64,000 nt of DNA. Origin: Candidatus Tectomicrobia bacterium (lineage in GTDB: Bacteria > UBA8248). The stretch spans positions 1-64,000 of the forward strand of contig JACPUR010000023.1 of assembly GCA_016192135.1 (NCBI GenBank). The letters are read 5' to 3'. The notes beneath the pieces are model-generated. The model did not search any database, was not told where the DNA came from, and saw only the letters and a program-made list of their open reading frames with translations. Position numbers and translations under genes: made by a program. This document shows positions 33,744 through 41,766 of this stretch, piece by piece; the first letter of the stretch is position 1, and the number at the start of each line of letters is the position of its first letter.

Positions 33744-34130
33744 TCAGCCCCCCGCACCCCCCAGCTGGGCGAGGAGCTCCTCGCCCAGCTCCGCGCAGAG
33801 GGCCTCGATCCGCTCGATGGCGGGGGCGTCCAGATCGTCGTAGTGGATGCCGCAGGCCAGGGCCACGTGGCAGCCCAGCGCCGCCGCCAGCCGCTCGGCC
33901 AGGGCCCGGCCCGGGCGCTCGTCCATGTGGCCGGGGCGGTTCAGGACGCTCGAGGTGGCGGAGGTGCGGGAGGGATCATCCAGGCTCGGGCGCGGTGAGG
34001 CCAGGATAACCGAGCCCACGTGGGGCCGCGCGCCCCCCGCGAGGAGGACCCAGAGGTCCTCCCCGGCCCAGCGGGCGCCCGCCTCGATGGGGGCGCCCCG
34101 GAACTCCCGCTCGGCGCGGACGAAGTCCAA
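33744..34130 (-). CDS. LpdD-like protein at the end of the aldehyde oxidoreductase operon
   Basis: A 128-aa protein starting at TTG 34130, 7 nt after the MoaD-like stop. The pattern matches the LpdD-like/gallate decarboxylase subunit D family: LWVLLAGGARPHVGSVILASPRPS, then TSATSSVLNRPGHMDERPGRALAERLAAALG, then HVALACGIHYDDLDAPAIERIEALC, with the conserved GGxxPHxG, PGHxD and GIHxDD elements. LpdD members are small proteins found with prenylated-FMN decarboxylases and also alone; their biochemical role is not settled. Here it is the fifth gene of a tungsten aldehyde oxidoreductase operon, suggesting a role in cofactor or substrate handling of that enzyme (inference). Confidence 0.75.
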   Translation of the reverse strand: MDFVRAEREFRGAPIEAGARWAGEDLWVLLAGGARPHVGSVILASPRPSLDDPSRTSATSSVLNRPGHMDERPGRALAERLAAALGCHVALACGIHYDDLDAPAIERIEALCAELGEELLAQLGGAGG

Positions 34131-34137
34131 GCCCGCC

Positions 34138-34461
34138 TCACCCCCCCATGAACTGGCCCATGAGGAGGATCTCGTCGCCCGCCTTCACGGGGGTGTCGAG
34201 GGTGTGGTGGATGCCGAGGAGGGCGTCGTTGACGGCCACCTCGATGTGCTCGCCCAGGTCGGCGGAGCCCCGGTCCCACAGGGCGTCGTTTAGGGCCGGG
34301 AAGCGGGCGCTGAAGCGCTTGAGGACGCTCCGCACGCTGTCGCCGGGGGCGGCCTCGACCTCGAAGCTCTTGCGGTCGCTCCCGTCCCCGCCCACGAAGG
34401 TGGTGGCCCAGGCCATCACCTCCACCTTGACCGGGAAGCGCCCGTCCGCCGCTTCGCTCAC
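34138..34461 (-). CDS. MoaD/ThiS-like sulfur carrier protein
   Basis: A 107-aa ubiquitin-fold protein ending in the diagnostic GQFMGG; the C-terminal Gly-Gly is the site of thiocarboxylate formation. The N-terminal strand VKVEVMAWATTFVGG, the middle VLKRFSARFPAL and VAVNDALLG fit MoaD. The GTG start at 34461 overlaps the W-subunit stop (GTGA), so it is made with it. A dedicated MoaD-like protein is a usual part of AOR-family operons, where it probably supplies sulfur for the metal-binding pterin. No partner MoaE or MoeB gene lies in the window. Confidence 0.88.
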   Translation of the reverse strand: MSEAADGRFPVKVEVMAWATTFVGGDGSDRKSFEVEAAPGDSVRSVLKRFSARFPALNDALWDRGSADLGEHIEVAVNDALLGIHHTLDTPVKAGDEILLMGQFMGG

Positions 34462-36365
34462 GCCTTGACCCCGGCCCCCCAGAGGGGCTCGATGACGTGC
34501 TCGAGCCCGAGGTCGCGCAGCGTCCCGGGGAGGGGCCGGCCCGTGGCGCGGTCGTAGCCCGCGGTCTGGTACCAGGTGTCCATCAGGGTGTCCCAGTGGT
34601 CTAGGATGGAGACGCCGGCGATGGGGCCGTCCACGGGGGTGGAGGCGTAGCGCTTCGAGGGCTTCTCCAGCTCGGGGCCGATGCCGCAGCGCAGGTTGAA
34701 GGCCCGCATGAGGGCGGCGGCGCGCCGGCCGGCCCGCATGGCCTCGTCGCGGCGGATGTCCCAGCCGGTGGCGGCGGCGACCGAGCGGCACAGCGTCTCC
34801 ATGTAGACCCGGGTGGTGAAGACGCAGGCCCCGAGCGAGTCCTCGAAGTGCTTGCGGCCGCGCATGGTGGCCACCTGGCGGGCGACGGGCACCGGGTCCT
34901 GGGGCGCGATGCGCGCCGGGAGCCCGAACTCGCTCGGGAAGGTCGGGGGGCCGGTGTCCTTGGTGCCCCCGCTGCCGGTGCAGGTGTCCAGGAGCTCCTC
35001 CCAGCGGGAGCGGTGGTCGTGCCCCCGGGGGCTGTTGCCCACCTCGGTGTAGATGGCGCACTCGGCGGCGGGGCCCCCGATCTTCCCGGAGGCGCGCTTC
35101 ACGCCCTCGGCCAGAATGTCGCCCATGCCCTCGCGCTTGCAGATCATGTCGAGCAGGCGGGCGGCGCCCTCGACGTCCCCCCACTCGAGGCGGAAGCCCA
35201 GGTCCTTGTCGCTGAGGTAGCCCTTCTGCTGGCACTCCATCACCCATCCGCACAGCCAGCCGAACTCGTTCACGTCCACGCAGGCCCGGTCGATCCGGGT
35301 GTTGAGCCAGGAGACCTCCTGCGGGTCGGTGGCGCCGATGGCCCACCCGGCCCCGGACCAGCCCTCGTACTCGGGCTCGTCCACCACCTCGCCCTTGTGG
35401 GCACCCGAGCGGATGACCTGCATGTGGCAGTGGTGCATCCCGCAGGCGCTGCACTGGTGGCCCCGGTGGTCGAAGCCCGCGCGCAGGGCCGGGGCCTCCC
35501 AGAGCTTGGTGTCCACCCCCTCGGGCCAGACGTTGGTGGTGTAGTTGCGGATGGGGAGCGCCCCCATGCCGTGCAGGTTCCGCACCCCGCCGAGGGTGCC
35601 GTACATGTAGAGCCCCTTGGTGGAGGGGTCGGTCTTGAGGTCGTGGGCGATCTCCTCGGCGGCGGCCAGGAGCGCGTGGGGATGGGCCGCGGCCACGCCC
35701 CGGGAGCCGCGCTCGATGGCCACGGCCTTGAGCCTCTTCTTGCCCATGACGGCGCCGCAGCCGTTCTTGCTGGCCACGTGGCCGTAGTCGCCCTGGATGG
35801 CGGCGAAGCGCACGAGGCTCTCCCCGGCGGGGCCGATGGAGTAGACGCTCAAGCGGTGGCCCGAGAGCCTGAGCTCGGCCTCGAGCGCCTGCTGGGTCTG
35901 CCAGGTGTCCTTGCCCAGGAGGGAGGAGGCGTCGCGGAGCTCGGCCTTCTCGTCCGTGATGTGGAGGTAGACCCACCGGGGCGACTGGCCCTGGACGACG
36001 ATGGCGTCGTAGCCGCAGGTCTTGATGTTGGCCCCGAAGAAGCCGTTGGCCTGGGTGTTGGTGGCGCCGTTCGTCAGGGCGCCGCGGGTGACGACGGTGA
36101 GCCCGCCCGTCCCCCACACCGGGAGCCCGGCGAGGGGCCCGGTAGCCATGACGAGGCGGTTCTCCGGGTGGTCCCAGTTCACCTCGGGGGGGACCTCCTC
36201 CCAGAGGATCTTGGCCCCGAGGCCCGCCCCGCCGATCCACTTGCGGCGGTCACCGCCCGTGAAGGGCTCGGAGGTGACCTTCCCGCTCGTGAGGTCCACC
36301 CGCAGGATGCGCCCCGCGTATGCGTAGATGGTGTCCGCCAAGATTCCGCCTCCCGTGGCCGTCAT
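34458..36365 (-). CDS. Tungsten-containing aldehyde:ferredoxin oxidoreductase family subunit (AorB-like)
   Basis: A 635-aa catalytic subunit that would oxidise aldehydes to acids (or run in reverse) at a tungsto-bispterin site. It begins ILADTIYAYAGRILRVDLTSGKV, the typical AOR start. The pterin-binding N-domain follows (WIGGAGLGAKIL, ATNTQANGFFGANIKTCGYDAIVVQG), then GPAGESLVRFAAIQGDYGHVASKNGCGAVMGKKRLKAVAIE. The 4Fe-4S ligands appear as CSACGMHHC, i.e. Cx2Cx4C, slightly wider than the Cx2Cx3C of the Pyrococcus enzyme, plus a distal Cys in SLGACVFTT. EVGNSPRGHDHRSRWEE lies in the substrate domain. Its ATG overlaps the FAD gene stop (ATGA). Confidence 0.93.
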   Translation of the reverse strand: MTATGGGILADTIYAYAGRILRVDLTSGKVTSEPFTGGDRRKWIGGAGLGAKILWEEVPPEVNWDHPENRLVMATGPLAGLPVWGTGGLTVVTRGALTNGATNTQANGFFGANIKTCGYDAIVVQGQSPRWVYLHITDEKAELRDASSLLGKDTWQTQQALEAELRLSGHRLSVYSIGPAGESLVRFAAIQGDYGHVASKNGCGAVMGKKRLKAVAIERGSRGVAAAHPHALLAAAEEIAHDLKTDPSTKGLYMYGTLGGVRNLHGMGALPIRNYTTNVWPEGVDTKLWEAPALRAGFDHRGHQCSACGMHHCHMQVIRSGAHKGEVVDEPEYEGWSGAGWAIGATDPQEVSWLNTRIDRACVDVNEFGWLCGWVMECQQKGYLSDKDLGFRLEWGDVEGAARLLDMICKREGMGDILAEGVKRASGKIGGPAAECAIYTEVGNSPRGHDHRSRWEELLDTCTGSGGTKDTGPPTFPSEFGLPARIAPQDPVPVARQVATMRGRKHFEDSLGACVFTTRVYMETLCRSVAAATGWDIRRDEAMRAGRRAAALMRAFNLRCGIGPELEKPSKRYASTPVDGPIAGVSILDHWDTLMDTWYQTAGYDRATGRPLPGTLRDLGLEHVIEPLWGAGVKA

Positions 36366-37687
36366 GCGTTCACCCTCACTTCGCGCTCCGGCACCGAGGG
36401 CCGGCCCAGCAGGGTCTGGGGCAGGAGCTCCTTCGTGGTCCCCGTGGAGAGGAACGCGAGCCGCACGTCCTGGGGCCGGGCCTTCAGGCGCGCCTTCCAG
36501 GCCGAGAGGTCCCGGCCCGTGTAGACCAGCCCCTTGAGCATGCCCACGTCGTTCGTGGCCCAGATCTCGCGCGTGCGGCCGAGGACGATGGCGCCGGCCA
36601 GCCGCCCTCCCCGGAAGAGGAGCTTCCGGTAGGCGGGCCGGTCGGGCCGCAGGTCCTCGCAGGCCTCGGCCCCGGCGTCGTCCCAGGCGCCGAAGCTGGC
36701 GATCTCGAGGTCCATCACGTCCACGATGTTCATCAGCAGGCTGCCGGGATAGGCCACCTCCCGCCCGGCCATGTTGGCCCCCGCCACCCGGCCGTGCTGC
36801 ATGGCGGTGGGCTCGATGGCGTGGACGGCCCGGCCCCCGCCGATGACGGGGCCCTCGGCCACGTCCCCCGCGGCATAGACGTTGGGGACGCTCGAGCGCA
36901 GGCGCTCGTCCACGACCACCCCGGCCTTCACCTCGACGCCCGAGCCCTTGAGCCACTCCAGGTTGGGCCGGATGCCCGTGGCCATGATGACGAGGTCGGC
37001 CTCGACATCGCCGCCGTCTTTGAGCTTGATGCGCTTGGCCTTGCCCGCGTCCTCGATGGCCGTCACCTGGACCCCGGGCCTGACCGTGACGCCCCGCTCC
37101 TCGAGCCAGGCCTGGACGATGCGGGCCGCCGCCTCGTCCACCATGCGGGGGAGGATGCGCGGGGCGATCTCCAGCACGGTGAGCCTGGCACCCCGGCTTA
37201 CAAGGGCGTTCAGGATGGTGAAGGCGATGAAGCCCGCCCCGATCATGGCGACCCGGGAGCCGGGCTTGATGCCCTCGGCCACCCCGCGCGCGTGGAGGAG
37301 GGTCCAGAAGCTGTGGACGTTCGCCCCCTCCGCCCCCGGGATGGGGGGGCGGACGGCCGAGGAGCCGGTGGCGATGAGGAGGTTGTCGTAGGGGATCTCG
37401 TCCCCGTTCGCGAGGATGAGCTTGCCCGCCTTGGCGTCCACCTTGGCGGCCCGGGCCCCGATGCGGGCCTGCACCTTGAGGGCGGCGAGGCGGTGGGGCC
37501 CGGCCGTCGTGCAGTGGCTCTCCCCGATCTGGCCGGCCAGGTAGTAGGGGAGCACCATCCGCGAGTAGGGCGCCTCGTCCGAGACCAGGATGATCTCGGA
37601 GGCCCCCTTGTCGATCTCCCGGATGGCGGTGATGGCGTTCCAGCCGGCGGTCCCGGCCCCGACGATGACGTTCCGCTGGGCGGCCAT
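36362..37687 (-). CDS. FAD-dependent NAD(P)H oxidoreductase subunit (AorC-like)
   Basis: A 441-aa pyridine-nucleotide-disulfide-type flavoprotein without the redox disulfide. FAD-binding motif NVIVGAGTAGWNA at the N-terminus, YDNLLIATGSSAVRPPIPG, the NAD-binding VAMIGAGFIAFTILNALVSRGARLTVLE, then ADLVIMATGIRPN and VYAAGDVAEGP. In the Aromatoleum-type aldehyde oxidoreductase, the FAD subunit AorC passes electrons between NAD+ and the polyferredoxin AorA; the same set of subunits is encoded here. It starts 2 nt after the ferredoxin stop and overlaps the W subunit. Confidence 0.9.
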   Translation of the reverse strand: MAAQRNVIVGAGTAGWNAITAIREIDKGASEIILVSDEAPYSRMVLPYYLAGQIGESHCTTAGPHRLAALKVQARIGARAAKVDAKAGKLILANGDEIPYDNLLIATGSSAVRPPIPGAEGANVHSFWTLLHARGVAEGIKPGSRVAMIGAGFIAFTILNALVSRGARLTVLEIAPRILPRMVDEAAARIVQAWLEERGVTVRPGVQVTAIEDAGKAKRIKLKDGGDVEADLVIMATGIRPNLEWLKGSGVEVKAGVVVDERLRSSVPNVYAAGDVAEGPVIGGGRAVHAIEPTAMQHGRVAGANMAGREVAYPGSLLMNIVDVMDLEIASFGAWDDAGAEACEDLRPDRPAYRKLLFRGGRLAGAIVLGRTREIWATNDVGMLKGLVYTGRDLSAWKARLKARPQDVRLAFLSTGTTKELLPQTLLGRPSVPEREVRVNA

Positions 37688-37689
37688 GG

Positions 37690-38154
37690 CTAGCGCGCCC
37701 CCGCGAGCGCGGCCCGCTCGGCGGCGAAGGGCCCGAGCCAGTCCTCGGTCTCGGCCTCCGTATAGAGGATGGCCTGGGTCGGGCAGACCTGGGCGCAGGC
37801 GGGAGCGCCGCCGCAGAGGTCGCACTTGAAGGCCTTGTGGGTGTCGGGGTCGTAGAAGACGGTGCCGTAGGGGCAGGCGATGGTGCAGAGCTTGCACCCG
37901 ACGCAGATGCCGTCCACCACGTCCTTGGCCCCGGCCGGGGAGATGACGATGGCCTCGACCGGGCAGGCGGTCAGGCACCAGGCCTCGGCGCACTGGGGGC
38001 AGGTGTAGGGGGCGTAGCTGGTGTGCCCCTCGAAGGCCGAGACCCGGATGACGGACTTCGAGGGCTGGAAGGTCCCGGTCTGCTCGTAGGAGCAGGCCAG
38101 CTCGCACCGCATGCAGCCGGTGCAGCGCTCGGGGATGATCTTGAGTACCCGCAT
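37690..38154 (-). CDS. Polyferredoxin subunit with four [4Fe-4S] sites (AorA-like)
   Basis: A 154-aa electron-transfer protein. Cysteine groups in order are CTGCMRCELAC (12-22 region), CPQCAEAWCLTACP, CVGCKLCTIACP and CDLCGGAPACAQVCP, enough for four [4Fe-4S] clusters, as in HycB/DmsB-like subunits and in AorA of Aromatoleum AOR. No signal peptide, so the complex is cytoplasmic. The ATG at 38154 has GGAGGATTCG upstream. It is the first gene of the operon ferredoxin-FAD-W subunit-MoaD-LpdD, with junctions from a 4-nt overlap to 7 nt. Confidence 0.93.
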   Translation of the reverse strand: MRVLKIIPERCTGCMRCELACSYEQTGTFQPSKSVIRVSAFEGHTSYAPYTCPQCAEAWCLTACPVEAIVISPAGAKDVVDGICVGCKLCTIACPYGTVFYDPDTHKAFKCDLCGGAPACAQVCPTQAILYTEAETEDWLGPFAAERAALAGAR

Positions 38155-38244: not shown

Positions 38245-38273
38245 ATTTTGTCAGATGGGGCGCGGGCGGTCAA
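38245..38273 (-). promoter_or_regulatory. Candidate promoter of the aldehyde oxidoreductase operon
   Basis: On the reverse strand TTGACC (38273-38268) and CAAAAT (38250-38245) are spaced by 17 nt, about 90 nt before the polyferredoxin ATG and just after the nitroreductase-fusion stop at 38287. The -10 box has 4 of 6 consensus bases. Confidence 0.45.
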
Positions 38274-38286
38274 TCGGCGGGAGGGC

Positions 38287-39648
38287 TCAGCCCTTCCCGG
38301 CCTCCTCCTGGAGGATCTCGGGCCCCGCGATGCCCCGGCGCTCGAGGAGGGGGATGAGCTTCCTGGGGTCGGCCCGGGCCACGCGCACGGTGTAGTGGAC
38401 GTGCCCGGCGGGGTCGGCCGGGTCGGGCTCGCTCACCACGGAGAGCACCTCCGCCCCCTCATCCTCCAGCGCCTTGAGGAGGGGCACGATCCCGCCCTCG
38501 CCGGGCCGGCGGGAGGCCTTGAGGGAGAAGCGCAGCGCGCCCCGGCCCTTGCCCACCGCGTCCAAGAAGCCGCCCAGCACGTCCCCCCGGGTGATGATGC
38601 CCGCGAGCCAGCCTCCCTCCACGACGGGGATGGCCCCCAGCTTGTTCGCGCGCAGGAGGTCGGCGGCCTGCTCGAGGGAGGCGTCCGGGCCGATGGTGAT
38701 GGGCTCGCGCGTCATCACGTCCTTCACGCGGCGGACGAGGAGGAGGTCGAAGCGGTCCTTGAGCCCCTTGGGCACGTCCGGGGGCAGGAGCACGCCCCGG
38801 ACGTCGCGGTCCGAGATGATCCCCACGAGGCGGCCCTCCTCCACCACGGGAAGGCGGCCGAAGCCCCCCTCGCGCATCATCGCCTGGGCGTCGTAGACGA
38901 GGGTGTCGGGGGAGCAGGTGACGGGGTTGCGGGTCATGCGGTCCGCGACGCGGAGGATGCCCCGGCCCGGCTCGTAGCTCGCGGCGAGGGAGGCGTCCCA
39001 GCCGTCGAGGTGGGTGCGGTCGGAGGCGGGGACGCGGCGTGTCTCCCCGTACCTCGCCTTGGGATGCCCCACCGGGATGAGGCAGGCCGTGCGCACGCAG
39101 GCGGGGATGCCCAGGGCGCGCTTCACCTCGTCCTCGTAGCGGCAGTGCAGGGTGGTGAGGACGGCCCCCAGCCCCCGGGCGCGGGCGGTGAGCAGGAGGT
39201 TCTGCACCGCCGGGTAGATGGAGGCGTAGACGCTGTTGAGCGTCATGACGGAGGGCGCCCCGGGGTCGTCCCCGAAGGAGAGCACCCGCATGTCCAGGCA
39301 GGGGAGGATGAGGACCGGCACCTTGTCCAGGTTGGCCGCGAAGTGGTCGCCCGCCGGGTGCTTCTTCCAGCGCTCGAGGGTGGCCGCCGCCTCGGGCTGG
39401 GTCTTGGCCATCTCGGCCACCTTCTCCTTGTAGGCGTTCCAGGAGCGGTGGTAGAGATCGCGCACCCGGGCCTTGAGCTCCGGGTCGCGCAGCACCACGA
39501 AGTGCCAGGGCTGGCGGTTGCCCCCGCTGGGGGCGCGGACGGCCGCGTCGAGCAGCGCCCGCACGTCCTCCTCCGAAACCGGCTCCTCGGTGAACTGCCG
39601 GATCGCCCGCTGGGTATGGATCGCCTCGTGCAGCGACATCTCGCTCAT
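38287..39648 (-). CDS. Nitroreductase-CBS-CBS-ACT-like fusion protein
   Basis: A 453-aa three-part protein. Residues about 1-220 are an FMN nitroreductase (HTQRAIRQFTEEPVSEEDV, AVRAPSGGNRQPWHFVVLRD, GLGAVLTTLHCRYEDEVKRALGIP). Residues about 235-370 are a CBS pair (DRMTRNPVTCSPDTLVYDA, GRLPVVEEGRLVGIISDRDVRG, DVMTREPITIGPDASLEQA, AIPVVEGGWLAGIITRGDVLG). The C-terminal 75 residues resemble an ACT-like ligand-binding fold (LRFSLKASRRPGEGG, HYTVRVARADPRKLIPLLERRG). The plan suggests a reductase, or former reductase, gated by an adenosyl ligand. It precedes the aldehyde oxidoreductase operon by 130 nt on the same strand. The ACT assignment is tentative. Confidence 0.85.
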   Translation of the reverse strand: MSEMSLHEAIHTQRAIRQFTEEPVSEEDVRALLDAAVRAPSGGNRQPWHFVVLRDPELKARVRDLYHRSWNAYKEKVAEMAKTQPEAAATLERWKKHPAGDHFAANLDKVPVLILPCLDMRVLSFGDDPGAPSVMTLNSVYASIYPAVQNLLLTARARGLGAVLTTLHCRYEDEVKRALGIPACVRTACLIPVGHPKARYGETRRVPASDRTHLDGWDASLAASYEPGRGILRVADRMTRNPVTCSPDTLVYDAQAMMREGGFGRLPVVEEGRLVGIISDRDVRGVLLPPDVPKGLKDRFDLLLVRRVKDVMTREPITIGPDASLEQAADLLRANKLGAIPVVEGGWLAGIITRGDVLGGFLDAVGKGRGALRFSLKASRRPGEGGIVPLLKALEDEGAEVLSVVSEPDPADPAGHVHYTVRVARADPRKLIPLLERRGIAGPEILQEEAGKG

Positions 39649-39747
39649 GGCCGCTCCCCCGGACCGGATGCCCCGAAACCCGCAGCGAACTCTAGCAGAG
39701 GGGGCGAATCCCTCCAATCCTCCCTCGCCCCGGGTTTTCCCTCGTTT

Positions 39748-39813
39748 GTAGGGGCGAACCTCGTGTTCGCCCCCGCGGGATTCGAAGAGGGCGATGACAA
39801 ACATCGCCCCTAC
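39748..39813 (+). repeat. Composite palindromic element, family C (forward orientation)
   Basis: A 66-bp unit made of two hairpins: GTAGGGGCGAACCTCGTGTT with CGCCCC, a short spacer, then GGGCGATGACAAACATCGCCC ending CTAC (described here by its parts). The outer ends GTAGGGGCG and CGCCCCTAC are inverted repeats. The same two-hairpin order occurs in reverse at 46719-46785. Confidence 0.8.
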
Positions 39814-39854
39814 GTATCTCCTTGAATCCCACCCCCTCAATCCGCCCCCCGCCC

Positions 39855-40733
39855 CTACCTCCCCGACGTGACCAACGCCGCCCCGGCCACGACGACCACG
39901 GTGGAGACCACCACCCGCCGGGTGATGACCTCCCGGCCCCGGAGGAACAGGAACGAGAGCAGGAGCACGAAGATGGGCCCCAGGCGGATGAGGGGCGCGA
40001 TGACGGAGAGGGAGCCGTCCCGGAGCGCCGTCCAGTAGTTCACGGCGGCGAGGATGGCCAGGAGGCCCGAGGGGAAGGCGCCCCACATCACCTCCGCGTC
40101 CCAGCGGAAGCGCTGCGAGCTCTCCATGAAGCGCGAGGTGCCGAGGAGCATGAGGTTCGCCATGAAGGCCGAGATCGCGATGCCCAGGAAGGGCGCGTCC
40201 ATCGAGAGGAGCCCCATCTTGCGCAGGTAGGGGGTGACGGCGAAGGCCGCCGTGCTCATGAAGGCGAAGGTGTACTTGGCGAGGGGCCGGCGCTCGCCCC
40301 CCCGCTCGCTCGTGAGGAGGACCATCCCCCCCACCACCAGCGCCACTCCCAGCCAGACCCCGGGCGAGGGCCGCTCCCCCAGCAGCGCCATGCCGATGAT
40401 CACCGCCCCGATGGGGGAGGCCGCCACCAGGGCGTTCGTGCGGCCCACCCCGACCTCCATGTGGGAGCGGTAGGAGGAGTAGCGCGCCACGGCGTTCCCC
40501 ACGAGCCCGACCGCGAGGAACATCCCGACGGCCAGCCAGGGGCTCCCGGCGTAGGAGTCGACGAAGGGGGAGAGGGCGAGGGCGGCCACCCCCATCCAGG
40601 CGTTCACCCAGAGGGTGGCCGTCATGGCCGAGGAGCGGTCCATCAGCCGCCGGACGGTGATCTGGTTGCAGGCGAAGAAGAAGCTCCCCAGCACGGCACG
40701 GACTTCCGCGGGAGGGATCGGGAGATCGCCCAT
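39855..40733 (-). CDS. EamA/DMT-superfamily transporter (tandem copy 1)
   Basis: A 292-aa ten-helix drug/metabolite transporter starting MGDLPIPPAEVRAVLGSFFFACNQITVRRLMDRSSAMTA. It is closely paralogous to the next gene at 40888: both share ACNQI.VRRLMDR, the WVN.WMGV segment, GVGRTNALVAASPIGAV versus GVSRTNAMIAASPLGAV, and an almost identical C-terminus (IFVLLLSFLFLRGREVI...RVV...VVAGA.LVTSGR). The duplication includes the 5' flank: similar sequence around GCCCATCGGGCCTCC and TATGGCACGGCCC precedes both starts. Substrate unknown. The family-C repeat lies just after its stop. Confidence 0.88.
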   Translation of the reverse strand: MGDLPIPPAEVRAVLGSFFFACNQITVRRLMDRSSAMTATLWVNAWMGVAALALSPFVDSYAGSPWLAVGMFLAVGLVGNAVARYSSYRSHMEVGVGRTNALVAASPIGAVIIGMALLGERPSPGVWLGVALVVGGMVLLTSERGGERRPLAKYTFAFMSTAAFAVTPYLRKMGLLSMDAPFLGIAISAFMANLMLLGTSRFMESSQRFRWDAEVMWGAFPSGLLAILAAVNYWTALRDGSLSVIAPLIRLGPIFVLLLSFLFLRGREVITRRVVVSTVVVVAGAALVTSGR

Positions 40734-40887
40734 CGGGCCTCCGGCGGGGGATTGGAGGTGACGCCCGAGTATGGCACGGCCCCTGCCGCGCGGCCATGGG
40801 TGGGCTGGCGGCGGCGCGCCGGGCGGGGTTGCCCATCGGCGGCTGCGTGCGCAGGCCCCGGAGAGGGAAACGCGAGGCCTTGCCCGC

Positions 40888-41766
40888 TCACCTCCCCGAC
40901 GTGACCAATACCGCGCCGGCCACGACGATCAGGGTCGCGATCACCACCCGCTTGGTGATGACCTCCCGGCCCCGGAGGAACAGGAACGAGAGCAGGAGCA
41001 CGAAGATGGGCCCCGTCCGCATGAGAGGGGCGATGACGGAGAGGGAGCCGTCCCTGAGGGCGGTCCAGAAGTTGATGGCCTGGCCGATGGCCAGCGCGCC
41101 GGCCGGGAGGGCCGCCCACATCGCCGCCGCGTCCCAGCGGAAGCGCTGGGGCTTCGCCATGAAGCCCGACGACGTCATGAGGGAGATGTTCGCCATGGAA
41201 GTGGAAAGCAGGATGCCCATCCAGGGGGCGTTCATCGCCAGCAGCCCCGCCTTGCGCAGGTAGGGGGTGATCGCGAAGGACACCAGGGACATGAAGGCGA
41301 AGGCGTACCTCCCCATCGCCCGCCGCCGCCCGTCTCCTTCGCTGGTGAGCAGGATCATCCCCGCGACCACCAGCCCGACCCCCAGCCAGAGGACGGGGCC
41401 GGGGCGTTCCCCGAGGAGCACGATGCCGGCGACCACCGCCCCGAGGGGCGAGGCCGCGATCATGGCGTTCGTGCGGCTCACCCCCACCTCGTAGTTCGAG
41501 CGGTAGGAGCAATAGCGCGCCATCCCCTGGCCCACCATCCCGACCCCTAGGAACATGAGAATGGCGAAGAGGGGCCTGCCCTCGTAGGAGTCCACGAAGG
41601 GCGAGAGCGCGATGGCGAAGACGCCCATCCAGCCGTTCACCCAGAAGGTGACGGTCATGGCCGAATCCCGGTCCATGAGGCGGCGGACCACGATCTGGTT
41701 GCAGGCGAAGAGAAAGCTGCCGATGAGGGCGCGGACTTCCGGGGACGGGAGGGAAAGATCGCCCAT
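40888..41766 (-). CDS. EamA/DMT-superfamily transporter (tandem copy 2)
   Basis: A 292-aa paralogue of the 39855 gene with the same length and the same ten-helix pattern (MGDLSLPSPEVRALIGSFLFACNQIVVRRLMDRDSAMTV). It diverges mainly in helices 6-8 (FMSLVSFAITPYLRKAGLLAMNAPWMGILLSTSMANISLM). It is separated from copy 1 by about 155 nt. Retention of two similar exporters suggests they have separated in substrate or expression. The region upstream contains family-A palindromes and runs divergently to the DinB-like gene. Confidence 0.88.
   Translation of the reverse strand: MGDLSLPSPEVRALIGSFLFACNQIVVRRLMDRDSAMTVTFWVNGWMGVFAIALSPFVDSYEGRPLFAILMFLGVGMVGQGMARYCSYRSNYEVGVSRTNAMIAASPLGAVVAGIVLLGERPGPVLWLGVGLVVAGMILLTSEGDGRRRAMGRYAFAFMSLVSFAITPYLRKAGLLAMNAPWMGILLSTSMANISLMTSSGFMAKPQRFRWDAAAMWAALPAGALAIGQAINFWTALRDGSLSVIAPLMRTGPIFVLLLSFLFLRGREVITKRVVIATLIVVAGAVLVTSGR

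Follow-up and report, generated by a model that had tools for sequence, protein, structure and literature searches.

A Class III tungsten oxidoreductase operon of Candidatus Tectomicrobia that carries an LpdD-like gene in one genus

The window, i.e. the whole 64,000-nucleotide stretch of Candidatus Tectomicrobia DNA that was analysed, contains five tightly packed ORFs on the minus strand between positions 38154 and 33744. In the order A-C-B-D-E, A and C are separated by 2 nt, C and B as well as B and D overlap by 4 nt each, and D and E are separated by 7 nt; a promoter-like site precedes the first gene:

38245..38273, minus strand: promoter-like site TTGACC-N17-CAAAAT upstream of gene A (consensus match only)
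37690..38154, minus strand: gene A, WorS/AorA-like polyferredoxin, 154 aa (Pfam, Cys pattern, best solved match AorA)
36362..37687, minus strand: gene C, WorN/AorC-like FAD/NAD subunit, 441 aa (Pfam, best solved match AorC)
34458..36365, minus strand: gene B, WorL, putative tungsten-bis-pterin subunit, 635 aa (Pfam, motifs, tree)
34138..34461, minus strand: gene D, MoaD/ThiS-like (WorX) protein with a C-terminal GG, 107 aa (Pfam)
33744..34130, minus strand: gene E, LpdD-like protein (PF21758, PAC_bac), 128 aa, TTG start (Pfam, model, residues)

The Pfam assignments of the operon proteins all exceed the family cut-offs, and both the five-gene extent and the order of polyferredoxin, FAD/NAD subunit, tungsten subunit, MoaD-like protein and LpdD-like protein given in the initial annotation agree with the ORFs and their domains. 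One promoter-like site was found before gene A, compared with 0.1 expected in shuffled sequences, both figures referring to consensus matches only. The TTG start of gene E is credible, since both congeners show a GTG at the equivalent spot just past the MoaD stop codon. Directly upstream of the operon, an ORF at 38287-40836 on the minus strand combines a nitroreductase domain with a CBS pair (Pfam matches at residues 409-591 and 630-683, respectively) and apparently encodes a fusion protein. Two adjacent EamA transporter genes on the minus strand (39855-40733 and 40888-41766), both of 292 aa, apparently arose by tandem duplication.

The subunit make-up encoded by the operon is that of a tungsten oxidoreductase (WOR) of Class III (WorL+WorS+WorN) in the classification scheme of PMC13328260, in that a WorL with AFOR N- and C-terminal domains occurs together with a WorS with four predicted [4Fe-4S] clusters and a WorN-type FAD/NAD subunit. 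Gene A has 16 Cys in four groups, from which the four clusters are predicted, and its best solved match is AorA of Aromatoleum (8c0z_C, 172.6 bits; next 107.9), a protein for which a filament helix has been described (PMC10413684). Gene C (Pyr_redox_2, 189 bits) is likewise closest to AorC (8c0z_E, 252 bits; next 140), and gene D matches ThiS with 26 bits. The proposed likeness to the NAD-reducing multi-subunit aldehyde oxidoreductase (AOR) of Aromatoleum holds for the three-subunit make-up of NAD type and the MoaD-like carrier, and NAD+ is predicted from this make-up to be the electron acceptor. Aromatoleum aromaticum AorABC(DE) (Class III WOR, clade 87; 8c0z) shares the four-cluster polyferredoxin, the tungsten subunit, the FAD/NAD subunit and the MoaD-like gene with the window operon; however, its genes are ordered A-B-C-D rather than A-C-B-D, its tungsten subunit belongs to another clade, and it does not have the extra LpdD-like gene carried by the genus of the window. 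The YdhV-type Class V WORs also combine WorL with a polyferredoxin, but use membrane partners where the window operon has the NAD-type FAD subunit.

Gene B matches both AFOR_N (PF02730, 216 bits) and AFOR_C (PF01314, 258 bits), and among solved structures scores 279 bits against PfAOR, 275 against 9mqx (annotated as aldehyde:ferredoxin oxidoreductase) and 240 against AorB. Loss of pterin-binding residues, which the initial annotation had named as the result that would speak against a W-bis-pterin subunit, was looked for and not seen: the DxxGxC and Dx4D motifs and the three Cys of the cluster motif are intact. The predicted cluster ligands are C305, C308 and C313 together with C514, and the spacing is CX2CX4C instead of CX2CX3C. 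In the tree of tungsten subunits, gene B falls into a clade of 21 sequences with support of 100/100, separate from the likewise fully supported (100/100) clade of PfAOR, 9mqx and AorB, and it does not group with AmWOR. The conserved second shell of AORs consists of Thr243, Glu313, Tyr427 and His448 (PfAOR numbering), of which Glu313 and His448 form a proposed proton relay (PMC12096430). T257 and E334 of gene B correspond to Thr243 and Glu313 and are kept across the clade, as are, in gene B, the equivalents of Glu311 and Tyr312, while Tyr427 is replaced by His within the clade (H449 in gene B). His448 is lost in all 21 members, which show K, M, L or I at this position of the alignment (D or E if it is off by one); in gene B the position is taken by K469, and the whole segment of the window protein is devoid of His.

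An assignment of gene B as an AorB-type AOR, i.e. an AOR sensu stricto of clade 87, was rejected, given its position outside the AOR clade and the loss of His448. Thus, the label of an AorABC-type AOR operon stands for the subunit make-up and for the kinship of A and C with AorA and AorC, but not for gene B. Since His448 is missing, classical aldehyde oxidation by the window WOR is uncertain, and 'aldehyde oxidoreductase' is a tentative label for gene B, whose tungsten content is predicted from the sequence. That gene B is nevertheless an ordinary aldehyde oxidoreductase, independently of any role of gene E, is a serious possibility, to which we give somewhat less than even chances. The retained equivalents of Thr243, Glu311, Tyr312 and Glu313 argue for it, and the exchange of Tyr427 for His also occurs in the characterised AOR Cf and ASOR (PMC12096430), whereas the substitution of the relay His in a segment without any His, the separate clade and the altered cluster spacing argue against it. 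BamB of class II benzoyl-CoA reductase is another member of the AOR/WOR family that departs from the second-shell residues of AOR. By contrast to BamB, the window subunit keeps the Glu313 and Thr243 equivalents, and the operon is without Bam-type bifurcation subunits. Furthermore, no Cys is present within the EPEYEGWSGAGWAIG stretch of the window subunit, although this comparison is indirect, as the match to the solved BamB spans only the N-terminal domain and leaves Cys322 unaligned. Besides gene B, the window genome carries two AFOR genes, one of them far closer to PfAOR (423 bits). A sister lineage with the same departures (CX2CX4C, His at the Tyr427 site, loss of His448) is seen in another family, where a locus (L102:8085-10755) encodes a polyferredoxin and a WOR with a tungsten subunit 40% identical to gene B; no AorC-like gene was found beside these two genes.

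Orthologues of gene B are present with 75-88% identity in 17 of the 18 host-family genomes examined, the remaining genome yielding none, and the operon is conserved in these 17, with two copies cut by contig ends. Four genomes of two other families have orthologues with 64-70% identity. The order A-C-B-D is kept across the three families (B 64-88% identical), often with an adjoining SHMT gene, while in the third family, represented by one genome, no gene D was identified. A search of viral contigs gave weak relatives only. What emerges is a predicted NAD-linked tungsten oxidoreductase module that has become fixed in at least three families of bacteria and whose tungsten subunit departs from the AOR active site, which makes its substrate a good target.

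The description of the fifth protein as LpdD-like is borne out by family, fold and residues. Gene E scores 103.3 bits against PAC_bac (PF21758; family cut-off 27), although in a pairwise comparison it matches Lactobacillus LpdD only weakly (E 0.003). Among the PDB matches of its AlphaFold model (pLDDT 94.6), LpdD structures take the first six places (E 1e-8 to 5e-7, TM about 0.8), with proteasome assembly chaperones next. In the alignments, H37, H68 and D70 correspond to H35, H61 and D63, which bind Mn in LpdD (PMC10865409); neither H37 nor H68 varies in a family alignment of 14 sequences, and GG32-33, G94 and H96 are invariant in the family as well. LpdD of Lactobacillus plantarum (8po5, 8pzh, 8p4w) is a chaperone that binds reduced prenylated flavin (prFMNH2) and activates UbiD (PMC10865409). 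It has the PF21758 family, the fold and the metal-site His-His-Asp in common with gene E, but the two proteins are only about 20% identical, and LpdD is encoded beside UbiX while gene E follows the WOR operon.

The distribution of gene E differs markedly from that of genes A to D. A PF21758 gene follows gene D of the WOR operon in all three genomes of the genus of the window, the two congeners being named as Candidatus Tectomicrobia MAGs, whereas the 15 further host-family genomes have no such gene. The initial annotation had suggested the LpdD-like gene as a new component of AOR operons, to be sought beside the MoaD-like gene in other such operons, and had named its absence next to AOR genes of related genomes as the result that would speak against this. 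This adjacency was restricted to the genus of the window: among the 16 orthologous operons outside the genus for which the downstream flank is assembled (13 host-family genomes that continue past gene D and three genomes of the second family), none has an LpdD-like gene, and other genes or short spacers come after gene D instead. A contig search with an alignment of three LpdD sequences returned only the two congeners and two Lachnospiraceae loci, the diverse alignments of 14 and five sequences being too divergent for such a scan. Within the genus, gene E is 80-84% identical and under purifying selection, with dN/dS values of 0.24-0.38, compared with 0.23-0.44 for genes A, B, C and D. Gene E is therefore a real, selected gene that was gained, or lost elsewhere, at the level of the genus.

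One way to read this selection is that gene E serves as a genus-specific assembly or cofactor-insertion factor of the WOR, for instance for FAD into C or W-pterin into B. The shared operon, a junction with gene D that the three species have in common and the similar selection would fit such a role, as would the resemblance of the LpdD fold to proteasome assembly chaperones and the binding of reduced flavin by a relative (PMC10865409). We consider it unlikely, since orthologous operons in other genera and families, with B 64-79% identical, do without gene E, and the family shows no tie to WORs elsewhere: a PF21758 gene occurs in 17 of 368 genomes outside the host family, and at none of these 17 loci is it part of a WOR operon, although at one of them an AFOR gene lies on the opposite strand at a distance of about 5 kb. 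Instead, at seven of the 17 loci UbiX, ribBA, UbiD or a CTP-dependent riboflavin kinase lies within about 2 kb. The LpdD-like gene, restricted to one genus, is probably an add-on that serves another enzyme and not a missing part of the WOR. The other 10 loci have no UbiX, UbiD or riboflavin gene nearby, and on this basis gene E could be an operon passenger with some other PAC_bac function, unrelated to both prFMN and the WOR. Such a function appears improbable, because the window copy keeps the metal-site residues and belongs to a subfamily with UbiX-linked members, the tree placing it (91/92) together with one homologue that adjoins UbiX and one from Lachnospiraceae. All seven genomes with UbiX-, ribBA- or UbiD-linked LpdD carry AFOR genes somewhere, against a base rate of 123/368 outside the family; three of the seven come from a single phylum, and since anaerobic life would account for the co-occurrence, it is not counted as evidence.

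The window genome encodes one UbiX and four UbiDs, all on other contigs, so that neither is found near gene E. Inspected by eye, UbiA- and UbiE-like genes lie beside one UbiD, and a transporter-like gene and a LysR-like gene lie near one. Both UbiD and UbiX are likewise present in sister genera without LpdD, indicating that LpdD is dispensable for UbiD. The reading that we favour, by a little over even chances, takes A-C-B-D as a Class III WOR with its maturation gene, and gene E as an LpdD-family prFMNH2 chaperone that acts for UbiD in trans and is co-expressed with the WOR in one genus. It is suggested by the fact that the WORs of sister lineages do without gene E, and that the LpdD family usually accompanies prenylated-flavin supply. 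The W-bis-pterin of B would oxidise (or reduce) a substrate, and electrons would pass from the single [4Fe-4S] cluster of B via the four clusters of A and the FAD on C to NAD+, while gene D, judged by its family, may serve pterin or cofactor maturation. Gene E would collect reduced prenylated flavin at UbiX and deliver it to a UbiD decarboxylase of the genome. Its placement at the end of the WOR operon would date to the ancestor of the genus and would have been kept by selection, so that gene E would be co-expressed with the WOR without being physically involved in it. The location of UbiX and the UbiDs away from gene E and the dispensability of LpdD for UbiD speak against this reading to some extent, as does the retention of gene E at the same place after gene D in all three species, which hints that co-expression with the WOR matters.

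A further reading is a metabolic coupling: the WOR would make an aromatic acid from an aldehyde, and a UbiD activated by gene E would decarboxylate the acid. LpdD does activate UbiD decarboxylation of hydroxybenzoates (PMC10865409), and the genome has four UbiD genes, one of them near the transporter-like and LysR-like genes. However, the operon contains no UbiD, the combination of this WOR with UbiDs exists in sister genera without any LpdD, and aldehyde oxidation is itself uncertain for a WOR without His448, so that we regard this coupling as rather doubtful. The physiological oxidant of prFMNH2 in strict anaerobes has been stated to be unclear (PMC13040415). As a speculation to which we give very little credence, the WOR with its NAD-linked polyferredoxin chain might be the anaerobic oxidant that matures LpdD-held prFMNH2 to prFMN-iminium for UbiD; if true, the operon would bring together a chaperone for prFMN and a dedicated redox complex linked to NAD.

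The literature search found no paper that joins LpdD with aldehyde oxidoreductase, or Tectomicrobia with aldehyde ferredoxin oxidoreductase. The present distribution corrects the idea of LpdD as a part of the WOR, and the pairing of the two in one genus offers a simple test case for prenylated-flavin handling in anaerobes. Several of the other LpdD loci merit mention in their own right. In two related genomes (L077:1662-2231 and L078:7497-8066, the latter by eye), a gene for an NADPH-dependent FMN-reductase-like protein directly adjoins LpdD and is a candidate partner in prenylated-flavin handling. One cluster (L081:4192-7042) unites LpdD, ribBA, UbiX and a CTP-dependent riboflavin kinase, and thus much of the supply route from flavin to prFMN. 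Finally, an LpdD homologue annotated as hypothetical is located on a plasmid of Desulfobaculum bizertense (L108:5977-6366), with NapC/NirT and multiheme cytochrome genes beside it.
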